Of a DNA stretch of 64,000 nucleotides, positions 14,406 through 18,811 are shown one piece after another. Every line of letters begins with the position of its first letter. Positions within the stretch are counted from its first letter, which is position 1. The notes beneath the pieces are model-generated. The model was not told the DNA's origin. It worked only from the letters and a program-made list of their open reading frames with translations, and made no database searches. The stretch is from Pelagibacterales bacterium SAG-MED39 (lineage in GTDB: Bacteria > Pseudomonadota > Alphaproteobacteria > Pelagibacterales > Pelagibacteraceae), in the NCBI GenBank assembly GCA_014653625.1, contig JACWEI010000001.1:1-64000 (forward strand). The letters are read 5' to 3'. Made by a program: the position numbers and the translations under genes.

Positions 14406-16481
14406 ATGAAAGTACCACAACTTAGAAAAAAGTCAGAAATAAAATCTTGTCACAATGTAACATGGGAAGATAACTATAGTTGGATACATCAAAAAGATAT
14501 TTTAGAAGTTTTAAAGGATAAAAATAAATTAAATAGTGAGGTTAAAAGATATCTTGAACAAGAGAATTCTTTTGCAGATTATCATTTAAAGGATACTCGG
14601 GATCTTCAAAAAAAATTATTTGATGAAATAAAAGGAAGAATTAAACTTGATGATGAATCTCTTCCTTACAAAGATCATACGTATGAATATTGGACCAAAA
14701 CTACAACTAAAGGTAATTATTCAATAAAACTTAGAAAAAAAAATAATACTAATAAAGTAGAGGAAATTTGGAATGGTGACAAAGAAAAAGAAAAATTAGG
14801 TGTTGAGTATTTTGGTGTAGGCGATTTAGAAGTTAGTCATAACGATAAATTACTTGGATACTCTTTAGATACTAAAGGTTCTGAGTATTACACTATTTTT
14901 ATTAAAGACATAAGTACTAATAAAACAATCACAAAAGAGATACCAGATACTTCAGGAAGCATCACTTTTAGTTTAGATGATAAATATATTTTTTATTCCA
15001 AACTAGATAAAAATCACCGAGCGAGACAAATTTTTAGGCATAGGATAGGAAATTTAGATGATGGAGATGAATTAATCTTCGAGGAAAAAAGTGAAGCATT
15101 CACTGTAAGTATAAGTCTTAGTTCAGATGAAAAATATTATTTTATTTCAACCTCAGATCACAATACCTCTGAACAATATTATTTTAAAGTTGAAGAAAAA
15201 AAGCCTAATCCAAAATTAATTTTAAAAAGAGAAAAAGGAATTTTATATTCAATAAATTCCTGGGATAAAAAATTTTACAATCATACAAACAAAGGTGCTG
15301 AGGATTTTAAAATTGATATTTCAAATAGTCTTGAAAAACAAAATTGGCAAACTTTTATTCCAGCAAAAAATGAGGTTTTGATTGGAGGTTGTATTTTTTT
15401 AAAAAATTGGATAATTCGCTCTGAAACCTCAAATGCTTTAGATAAATTATTTGTAAGAAATATTTCTAATAATATAGAAGAGGAATTGGTTATTTCTGAT
15501 GAGATCGTTTGTGTGCCAAATATTTCATTGAGACAAAAAGATAAAAATACAGATGAAATTTATGTTGGATATTCATCTCCAAAAACACCCTCAAGGGTTT
15601 ATCTGTATAATCTTGCGCAAAAATCAAAAAAACTAGTTAAAGAACAAGAAATTCCCTCAGGTCATAATTCTAATAATTATATCGTAGAAAGAGTTGACTT
15701 TAAATCACACGATGGAAGAATTGTTCCTCTAACAATCACAAGACACAAAAAAACTAAATTAGATGGATCTGCTAATTTACTTTTATATGGTTATGGTTCT
15801 TATGGAAGTTCAATGAGTCCAAATTTTTCTACAATAAGATTAAGTCTTATTGACAGAAATATAATTTGGGCAACTGCACATATAAGAGGTGGGATGGAAA
15901 AAGGCATGAAGTGGTGGAAAGAAGGTAAACTTACTAATAAAAAAAATACTTTTAAAGACTACATTAGTGCAGCAAAATATTTAATTGATAATAAATATTC
16001 CTCAAAAGGAAAAATAATTGGAATGGGTGGATCAGCTGGAGGATTATTAATGGGGGCTGTGGTTAATCAAGCCCCCGAGTTGTTTTTAGGAATAATAATG
16101 GCAGTACCGTTTGTTGACTCTTTGACAACTAATCTTGATCATTCTCTACCTTTAACTATTGGTGAATTTGATGAATTTGGTAATGCAAAAGAGAACAAGG
16201 AACATTTTGATTATATATTTTCATACGCTCCATATAATAATATCAAAAAAATGGATTATCCTCATATTTTAATTACAACTAGCTTAAGCGACAATAGAGT
16301 ATTATTTGATGAACCAACAAAATTTACAGCTAAACTAAGAGATTATAAAACCGATAATAATTTATTATTATTAAAAACCGAAATGAATGCTGGTCATGGT
16401 GGAAAATCTGGAAGAGATGGAGCTATCGAAGAAATAGCTCTTGATTATGCTTTTGCACTCAAAATTTCAAAAAAAAATTAA
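14406..16481 (+). CDS. ptrB: Oligopeptidase B (prolyl oligopeptidase family S9A)
   Basis: Serine peptidase that cuts short peptides after basic residues. The N-terminal beta-propeller (about 70-400) is followed by an alpha/beta-hydrolase domain: nucleophile in GMGGSAGGLLMGA, aspartate in TSLSDNRV, histidine in NAGHGGKSGR. The family motif GYGSYG with HIRGGMEKG precedes the nucleophile. The length of 691 aa matches the family. No signal peptide is seen, so it is cytoplasmic or periplasm-exported by another route. It starts only 15 bp from the divergent J-domain gene start. Confidence 0.93.
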   Translation: MKVPQLRKKSEIKSCHNVTWEDNYSWIHQKDILEVLKDKNKLNSEVKRYLEQENSFADYHLKDTRDLQKKLFDEIKGRIKLDDESLPYKDHTYEYWTKTTTKGNYSIKLRKKNNTNKVEEIWNGDKEKEKLGVEYFGVGDLEVSHNDKLLGYSLDTKGSEYYTIFIKDISTNKTITKEIPDTSGSITFSLDDKYIFYSKLDKNHRARQIFRHRIGNLDDGDELIFEEKSEAFTVSISLSSDEKYYFISTSDHNTSEQYYFKVEEKKPNPKLILKREKGILYSINSWDKKFYNHTNKGAEDFKIDISNSLEKQNWQTFIPAKNEVLIGGCIFLKNWIIRSETSNALDKLFVRNISNNIEEELVISDEIVCVPNISLRQKDKNTDEIYVGYSSPKTPSRVYLYNLAQKSKKLVKEQEIPSGHNSNNYIVERVDFKSHDGRIVPLTITRHKKTKLDGSANLLLYGYGSYGSSMSPNFSTIRLSLIDRNIIWATAHIRGGMEKGMKWWKEGKLTNKKNTFKDYISAAKYLIDNKYSSKGKIIGMGGSAGGLLMGAVVNQAPELFLGIIMAVPFVDSLTTNLDHSLPLTIGEFDEFGNAKENKEHFDYIFSYAPYNNIKKMDYPHILITTSLSDNRVLFDEPTKFTAKLRDYKTDNNLLLLKTEMNAGHGGKSGRDGAIEEIALDYAFALKISKKN

Positions 16482-16491
16482 ATATATAATA

Positions 16492-16521
16492 TTGAAAATA
16501 TTAATTTAGTTCCTACATACT
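16492..16521 (+). promoter_or_regulatory. Possible promoter for hsp20
   Basis: TTGAAA (16492-16497) and CATACT (16516-16521) with an 18-bp spacer could serve as -35 and -10. Transcription would then begin at about 16525-16528, right at the first hairpin of the leader. The match is weak in this AT-rich DNA, and a heat-shock sigma factor (RpoH) promoter is an alternative reading of the same stretch. Confidence 0.3.
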
Positions 16522-16524
16522 AAA

Positions 16525-16580
16525 TGCAAGTTGCCTAATGGAACTTGCAAAAATAAACTTGCTTAACAAAGGAGAATATT
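16525..16580 (+). promoter_or_regulatory. ROSE-like RNA thermometer in the hsp20 leader
   Basis: Two hairpins can be drawn by eye. Hairpin I is TGCAAGTT...AACTTGCA (16525-16549), 8 bp plus an inner CC/GG with a bulged G. Hairpin II pairs CTTGCTT (16558-16564) with AAGGAG (16569-16574) across an AACA loop, with one unpaired G opposite the Shine-Dalgarno. A UUGCU segment facing the ribosome binding site with a conserved G is the hallmark of ROSE elements, which melt on heating to allow translation of small heat-shock genes in alphaproteobacteria. The ATG is 6 nt after AGGAG. This is inference from pairing and the downstream gene. Confidence 0.65.
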
Positions 16581-17027
16581 ATGACAAGTAAGGACCTATC
16601 TATATTTAATTCACTTAGGCCTTTTTCAATTGGTTTTGATGATATGTTTGATCAATTTGAAAATATGCTAGGAAACGGGGCTTTGACAATGCAGTCAAAC
16701 TACCCGCCCTACAATATCAGAAAGACTGGCAAAGATAATTATGCAATTGAAATTGCTTTAGCTGGTTTTAATAGAAAGGATGTTGAAGTTGAATTTGAAG
16801 ATAATTTATTGACAGTAAAAACAAAACAAGTCAATAAGTCTGAGGATAAGAATGCCGATGGAGAAATTATTCATAAAGGTATTTCTCAAAGACAATTCGC
16901 AAGATCGTTTACTATTGCAGATGACGTAAAAGTTGATGGTGCTCAACTTAAAGATGGTTTATTAACAATATCTTGTGAAAGAATTATTCCTGAGCATAAA
17001 AAGAAAAAACTTATTGAAATTAAATAA
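16581..17027 (+). CDS. Small heat-shock protein, Hsp20/IbpA family
   Basis: ATP-independent holdase that binds unfolding proteins and hands them to DnaK/ClpB. 148 aa: an N-terminal arm (SIFNSLRPFSIGFDDMFDQFENM) typical of alphaproteobacterial IbpA-like proteins, the alpha-crystallin domain (NYPPYNIRKTGKDNYAIEIALAGFNRKDVEVEFEDNLLTVKT... DGLLTISCER), and a C-terminal IEI motif for oligomerisation. A strong Shine-Dalgarno (AAAGGAG) is sequestered in a ROSE-like hairpin, which suggests temperature control of translation. Confidence 0.93.
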   Translation: MTSKDLSIFNSLRPFSIGFDDMFDQFENMLGNGALTMQSNYPPYNIRKTGKDNYAIEIALAGFNRKDVEVEFEDNLLTVKTKQVNKSEDKNADGEIIHKGISQRQFARSFTIADDVKVDGAQLKDGLLTISCERIIPEHKKKKLIEIK

Positions 17028-17040
17028 GCAAACCCTTGCT

Positions 17041-17061
17041 TGCGGAGATTAATTCTCCGCA
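17041..17061. terminator. Hairpin between convergent hsp20 and lipoprotein genes
   Basis: TGCGGAGA and TCTCCGCA form a perfect 8-bp stem with a TTAAT loop. It is unusually GC-rich for this genome and lies 13 bp after the hsp20 stop, just before the convergent lipoprotein gene end. No clear T-run follows on either strand, so it may terminate weakly, or act as an mRNA 3'-end stabiliser. Confidence 0.5.
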
Positions 17062-17500: not shown

Positions 17501-18811
17501 ATGTTAGAAAAATATTTTGAATATAAAAAACATAAAACAAACTTTAAAACTGAGGTAATTGCTGGAGTTACAACTTTTTTAACAATGGCATACATCATGT
17601 TTTTAAACCCTTTCATACTTTCTGGTGAGTTTGCTGGACCCGAAAAAGGTTTTTTTGATTTTGGAGCAGTTTTTACAGCCACAATTGTAGCAACTGCATT
17701 AGCTTGTTTCATAATGGCTTTTTATGGAAAAACTTGGCCAATTGGTCTCGCCCCTGGGATGGGAATCAATGCATTTGTGGCATTTGGAGTCGTAGCAGGT
17801 ATGGGCTATACACCTCAAGCGGCATTAGGAGCTGTTTTAGTTGCAGGTATATTATTTTTAATTATCTCTCTTACTCCAATTAGAGCATGGTTAATTAATT
17901 CAATTCCTAGAAGTTTAAAACTTGGTATTGGAGCTGGAATTGGTTTGTTCTTAGCTATAATTGGCCTAGAAATAATGGGAGTAGTTGCTGATCATCCAGT
18001 AACCCTAGTGACTTTAGGAGATATAAAAAATCCATTAATAATCTTAGGCTGTTTAGCGTTTGTGTCTATGATTGTTATGGAAAAACTAAACATAAAAGGA
18101 AATATAATTATTGGTATTATTGCTTTTAGTATTATTGCTTGGGGATCAGGGCTAGCAAAATTTAATGGTGTTGTGGGAAGTATTCCTCCAATGACATATT
18201 TAATGGATTTTGATTTGACAGCCGCATTCACTGCTGGAATGTCAACAGTAATATTTACTCTTTTGTTTATAGATTTTTTTGATACTGCCGGAACTTTAAC
18301 GTCAGTAGCCAATGTTGCCGGAAAAGTTGATAAAAATGGGAAAGTTCAAGATATAGAAAAAGCTATGATGTCTGATAGTGTTGGAACAGTTGCAGGTGCT
18401 CTAATGGGTACTACTACAGTAACAAGTTACGTAGAATCTGGTGCTGGAGTTAAAGCTGGTGGCAGAACCGGAATGACTTCTTTAGTTATTGGAGTATTAT
18501 TTTTAGCTTGTTTGTTTCTTTCGCCACTTGCTACAAGTCTACCAAAAGAAATAGATGGGGCAGCGCTTCTCTATGTGGCTGTATTATTTGTAAGAAATAT
18601 TACTGATATAGAATGGGATGACATTGGAGAGTCTGCACCGGCTGTCTTAGCTATGATTGCAATGCCCTTAACATACAGTATAAGTAATGGTATTGCGCTG
18701 GCATTTATTTCTTACGCTTTAATCAAAATATTTACTGGAAAGTTTTCTTCAACTTCCCCTGCAATTTGGGTTATCGCTATTTTAAGTTTTATAAGTTTTG
18801 TTGTTGCTTAA
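17501..18811 (+). CDS. NCS2-family purine permease (AzgA/PbuG type)
   Basis: 436-aa inner-membrane transporter with about 12-14 hydrophobic segments. The opening (FKTEVIAGVTTFLTMAYIMFLNPFILS), GLAPGMGINAFVAFGVV, FFDTAGTLTSVA and TTTVTSYVESGAGVKAGGRTG are signatures of the AzgA/PbuG (COG2252) branch that imports adenine, guanine or hypoxanthine. A good Shine-Dalgarno (AGGAGG, 17491-17496) precedes ATG 17501. The convergent neighbour is a purine phosphoribosyltransferase, so uptake and salvage sit side by side. No purine riboswitch is visible in the 126-bp leader. Confidence 0.9.
   Translation: MLEKYFEYKKHKTNFKTEVIAGVTTFLTMAYIMFLNPFILSGEFAGPEKGFFDFGAVFTATIVATALACFIMAFYGKTWPIGLAPGMGINAFVAFGVVAGMGYTPQAALGAVLVAGILFLIISLTPIRAWLINSIPRSLKLGIGAGIGLFLAIIGLEIMGVVADHPVTLVTLGDIKNPLIILGCLAFVSMIVMEKLNIKGNIIIGIIAFSIIAWGSGLAKFNGVVGSIPPMTYLMDFDLTAAFTAGMSTVIFTLLFIDFFDTAGTLTSVANVAGKVDKNGKVQDIEKAMMSDSVGTVAGALMGTTTVTSYVESGAGVKAGGRTGMTSLVIGVLFLACLFLSPLATSLPKEIDGAALLYVAVLFVRNITDIEWDDIGESAPAVLAMIAMPLTYSISNGIALAFISYALIKIFTGKFSSTSPAIWVIAILSFISFVVA

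Follow-up and report, generated by a model that had tools for sequence, protein, structure and literature searches.

Does the short leader of a small heat-shock gene in a SAR11 genome act as an RNA thermometer? The question is raised by the 56 bases directly ahead of the start codon of hsp20 in a 64,000-nucleotide stretch of DNA (the window), which the initial annotation had read as a ROSE-like element in a SAR11-type genome. SAR11 bacteria count among the ocean's most abundant cells and possess few regulators; a protein-free heat sensor kept throughout SAR11 would give them one of a small number of direct responses to temperature. Covariation, a sigma-32-type promoter and a sub-threshold match to the Rfam family ROSE_3 support the original reading. 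The leader is very probably a short, two-hairpin ROSE-like thermometer with a predicted heat response, in which the blocking strand has a putative second, in-gene partner in some genera.

The hsp20 gene, its promoter and its leader

The closest named relatives of the Hsp20 protein belong to Pelagibacteraceae, and the source genome is therefore SAR11 (Pelagibacteraceae). The gene downstream of the leader is a small heat-shock gene, as its product exceeds the PF00011 cut-off in a profile search (64 bits, cut-off 20.8); the IbpA equivalog model gives 103 bits, under its cut-off of 212. An hsp20 gene was found in 342 of the 397 genomes sampled from the order. One genus member (G057; L057 and L058) carries a divergent hsp20 together with a second, weak hsp20-like match of 31% identity. 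In the window, the upstream flank (14406–16481) is a prolyl oligopeptidase gene (PF02897, PF00326), which stops at 16481, and the downstream flank (17501–18811) is a gene for a xanthine/uracil-type permease (PF00860). A perfect hairpin, TGCGGAGATTAATTCTCCGCA, lies directly after hsp20 at 17041–17061; it has no clear T run and is a possible candidate for the transcript end. Features of the locus are as follows.

16492–16496, + strand: -35 element TTGAA of a sigma-32-type promoter; TTGAA is present in 127/127 leaders of the genus, mostly as CTTGAAA
16513–16520, + strand: -10 element CTACATAC; genus consensus CCATATAA
16525–16549, + strand: hairpin I, UGCAAGUU[G]CC-UAAU-GGAACUUGCA, 10 bp, bulged G at 16533
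16558–16564, + strand: anti-Shine-Dalgarno strand CUUGCUU of hairpin II, bulged G at 16561
16569–16574, + strand: ribosome-binding site AAGGAG, paired within hairpin II
16581–17027, + strand: hsp20, IbpA-like small heat-shock protein, 148 aa
16586–16592, + strand: AAGUAAG in hsp20 codons 2–4, putative second and mutually exclusive partner of CUUGCUU, from codon conservation and synonymous controls

The two promoter boxes resemble the sigma-32 consensus of Pseudomonas ibpA (PMC3669281), and RpoH scores above the TIGR02392 cut-off in the source genome and in four others. Spacing between TTGAA and the CCATATAA-like box is 16 in 119 of the 127 leaders, and the latter box starts 20 nt ahead of the bulged G of hairpin I in 108. 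Given promoter-like boxes at such a near-fixed distance, the message should begin at hairpin I, with a predicted start at about 16525.

The 56-base leader is made up of hairpin I and hairpin II (16558–16574), the latter reading CUU[G]CUU-AACA-AAGGAG with one bulged G. All motifs named in the initial annotation lie where it had placed them (TGCAAGTT at 16525, AACTTGC at 16542 and 16556, CTTGCTT at 16558 and AAGGAG at 16569). Both of its hairpins are real and exceed chance, including the pairing of CUUGCUU with AAGGAG around a single bulged G; the upstream hairpin stands at 16525–16549, and the bulged G at 16533 is an addition to what had been described. The segment 16520–16600 has a folding z-score of -3.05 against 200 dinucleotide shuffles, only one of which folds at least as well. 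The structural features expected of a ROSE-like element are thus present, namely a U(U/C)GCU strand that pairs with the ribosome site leaving a single bulged G (CUU[G]CUU/AAGGAG), and at least one stable 5′ hairpin, here the covarying hairpin I, ahead of the sensing hairpin. A FourU thermometer, with four consecutive U on the ribosome site, was considered and rejected, since the blocking strand CUUGCUU has no UUUU.

A scan of the window against Rfam gave no match at gathering score. ROSE_3 (RF02523) nevertheless aligns over its full length to 16525–16586, with two hairpins and a bulge in each 5′ arm, but scores 29.4 bits (E 8.8e-4 in a 1.2-kb search), short of the gathering score of 43 bits. 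Comparison with the Rfam ROSE models, which the initial annotation had proposed as a check, therefore bears it out in the end-to-end alignment and not in the score. The gathering score was reached in none of 20 genomes (best 35.1 bits), most leaders being missed and most SAR11 relatives scoring lower or not at all, and Rfam scans of the leaders of 38 relatives gave no ROSE match at the E-values used. With the right anatomy and a score below the threshold, the leader is ROSE-like and lies outside RF02523. Most such SAR11 elements are missed by the Rfam models and are hence invisible to routine annotation.

Conservation and covariation of the two hairpins

The comparative set within the genus consisted of 127 distinct hsp20 leaders. 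In a motif-anchored count over the six bulge-adjacent pairs of hairpin I, 97% of cells are paired, compared with 24–56% when the partner strand is slid by one to three bases, and compensatory exchanges (G-C/A-U; A-U/U-A/G-C; U-A/C-G/G-C/A-U) occur at several pairs. The core of hairpin II is near-invariant, CTTGCT and GGAG being located in 127/127 leaders; in a single leader the motif finder took an upstream GGAG. Such constancy is to be expected at a ribosome site, and with so little change in either strand hairpin II shows little covariation within the genus. Some lineages of other genera (g7 and part of g8) carry CUCGCUU, which converts a U-G pair to C-G.

A covariance-model alignment extended the comparison across genera. 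Of its 33 matches, 32 are hsp20 leaders, which come from both families and several genera. Having been fitted to the structure, this alignment is biased in its favour; 97.0% of its cells are paired (81% in shuffles), 73 cells are double-changed (14.7 in shuffles), and 13 of the 16 pairs include double changes. Because the loop and the ribosome site are out of place in some rows of the MAFFT alignment (A1), pair counts from it understate hairpin II, and the motif-anchored and structure-fitted counts were used. Compensatory change in relatives, which the initial annotation had asked for, is accordingly strong for hairpin I and modest, across genera, for hairpin II. Its further suggestion that the first arm pairs with the second AACTTGC to release the ribosome site did not hold: that pairing is not conserved (72.7% of cells paired), its outermost pair forms in 15 of 56 rows, and its covariation score is no higher than that of a one-column slide.

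Leaders of the sister family have a sequence of their own, in which RNAalifold independently predicts the same design, a bulged-G hairpin over the ribosome site. In these divergent two-hairpin leaders (L059–L090), which gave no Rfam match, the register is shifted and AAUCGCUUAAGGAGGAUU covers the ribosome site. Chance structure in an AT-rich leader, to which the lack of an Rfam match at gathering score in the window might point, was rejected on the comparative evidence; given conservation and covariation in 127 leaders and beyond, we consider such a coincidence extremely improbable.

A covariance model built from the hsp20 leader element gave one significant match in each of ten SAR11 genomes, and no further significant copies were found in them. 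In seven (G000, G012, G122, G123, G127, G121 and G125) the match was placed at the start of hsp20. Among 289 alphaproteobacterial genomes, six matches fell outside SAR11, and five of these are hsp20 leaders by sequence. For L211 and L212 the downstream sequence translates into Hsp20 proteins; inspection by eye places L209, L210 and L213 ahead of an Hsp20-like reading frame that runs along the opposite strand of the retrieved locus. The sixth, L214, is not an hsp20 leader. The ROSE-like leaders L209–L213 represent other alphaproteobacterial families, and ROSE_3 did not reach the Rfam cut-off in the four of these genomes that were searched with it. Judged from sequence, the two-hairpin design ahead of hsp20 is shared by genera of Pelagibacteraceae, the sister family and a small number of other Alphaproteobacteria.

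Codon constraint at the start of hsp20

Codon 3 of hsp20 is AGT in 127/127 leaders, although AGT accounts for only 8% of serine codons elsewhere in the same genes, and codon 4 is AAG in 123/127, AAG making up 22% of lysine codons elsewhere in them. These codons rank first and second among 117 conserved columns, and third-position identity between hsp20 genes has a median of 0.64. A general early-codon bias was rejected as the cause of AAG, as lysine codons at positions 2–8 of the window genes are AAA in 71 cases and AAG in 5. Genera g1, g9, g10 and g13 show the signal strongly and g6 shows it in part; L189 also has it, and all others lack it.

Seven base pairs can form between AAGUAAG and CUUGCUU. 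Folding computed at 20 C gives the blocking strand in the window a probability of 0.987 of pairing with the coding region; the median for 400 synonymous variants is 0.029, and not one of them attains the value of the window. Over all 127 leaders, the mean is 0.86 against 0.04 in synonymous controls. Both strands are near-invariant, and covariation therefore cannot prove this pairing. Whether Pelagibacter and nearby genera possess a two-partner device, with a blocking strand that pairs with either the ribosome site or codons 2–4 and with selection acting on the coding sequence, appears to us evenly balanced.

Folding of the leader alone predicts that AAGGAG is closed in the cold and opens progressively on warming. 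With the sequence extended to the first 18 bases of hsp20, nearest-neighbour folding pairs CUUGCUU with codons 2–4 and not with AAGGAG in the minimum-energy structure, the coding-region helix prevails at each temperature computed, and AAGGAG is mostly unpaired yet enclosed in a loop. A ribosome site open at low temperature, which the initial annotation would have counted against a thermometer, is thus absent from the leader-only folds and partly present with the coding start. The method decides little, as it is a weak judge that gives no clear melting for E. coli ibpA, a known thermometer. Compared with synonymous variants, the computed cost of opening the whole 30S site is about 1 kcal/mol higher, whereas freeing the ribosome site alone is 2–4 kcal/mol easier. 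With these opposed costs, both a second lock and a switch are possible; the coding-region partner would most likely serve as an additional lock, with the start region shut inside a loop, a direction of effect put forward as a proposal.

A switch, with translation off when the anti-Shine-Dalgarno strand is paired to the ribosome site and on when it is paired to codons 2–4, would draw on the mutual exclusion of the two pairings, on the cheaper release of AAGGAG and on the retention of AGT AAG against codon bias. We regard it as decidedly unlikely, because the codon 2–4 helix lies within the 30S footprint and makes the whole site costlier to open, the computed fold does not change with temperature, and other SAR11 genera and other Alphaproteobacteria have hairpin II with no matching coding partner. 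A plain ROSE-like thermometer, in which AGT AAG is constrained by something else, such as an internal AAGGA resembling a ribosome site in codons 4–5 or a protein or small RNA that binds there, is a possible though less favoured account. Codons AAG GAT do read AAGGA, which AAA would weaken, and the constraint is confined to some genera, but AAGGA leaves the AGT of codon 3 (127/127) unexplained in genes dominated by other serine codons. AGG at codon 4 and GGT at codon 3 (L179) retain the pairing, which also counts against this account, though AAA (2 leaders) and AGA (1) each break one pair.

The hairpins might instead be mainly a binding site through which Hsp20 represses itself, with temperature sensed via client load. 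E. coli IbpA sets the precedent, repressing its own mRNA through the 5′ UTR with a requirement for R93 (PMC10474464), and SAR11 Hsp20 has Arg aligned to R93 and R97 and Tyr at Y34. It has Ser at K98, however, its binding of RNA is hypothetical, and in E. coli the repression acts on top of a ROSE element and does not replace it. As the main function of the hairpins this seems rather unlikely; by analogy, IbpA-like autoregulation could operate on top of a SAR11 thermometer.

Proposed mechanism and relation to known thermometers

Under the favoured thermometer reading, a sigma-32-type promoter would yield an mRNA that begins at hairpin I. At low temperature, CUU[G]CUU would pair with AAGGAG around the bulged G and block 30S binding. 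Warming would melt the weak helix of hairpin II while hairpin I remains folded, as extrapolated from Pseudomonas ibpA, so that Hsp20 would be translated at the time when heat is also raising transcription of its gene. The blocking strand in Pelagibacter and the nearest genera is in addition complementary to codons 2–4, which selection keeps.

Literature searches on ROSE elements in Pelagibacter and on thermometers in SAR11 found no description of the hsp20 leader. The main text of Meyer et al. 2009 on P. ubique mentions neither heat shock nor thermometers (PMC2704228). The available text of Stav et al. 2019 reports one possible RNA thermometer in SAR11 strain HIMB5 and leaves its leader unspecified (PMC6429828); that candidate, likewise predicted in SAR11, may or may not be the hsp20 leader. 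Classical ROSE elements (Bradyrhizobium hspA, E. coli ibpA) share the U(U/C)GCU anti-Shine-Dalgarno strand and the association with small heat-shock genes, but have three to four hairpins (PMC3669281).

The short ROSE-like elements of Pseudomonas ibpA, experimentally established as thermometers, have a sigma-32 promoter and a two-hairpin leader of 61–62 nt (Krajewski et al. 2013, PMC3669281). The SAR11 locus resembles them in its leader of about 60 nt, its sigma-32-type promoter, its small heat-shock gene and its two hairpins, the 5′ one stable and the second pairing U(U/C)GCU with the ribosome site. It differs in that the leader is far more AT-rich, that both hairpins carry a bulged G, and that in Pelagibacter-type genera the coding start contains AGUAAG complementary to the blocking strand, a constraint that, if it reflects pairing, would extend ROSE-like thermometers into coding sequence.
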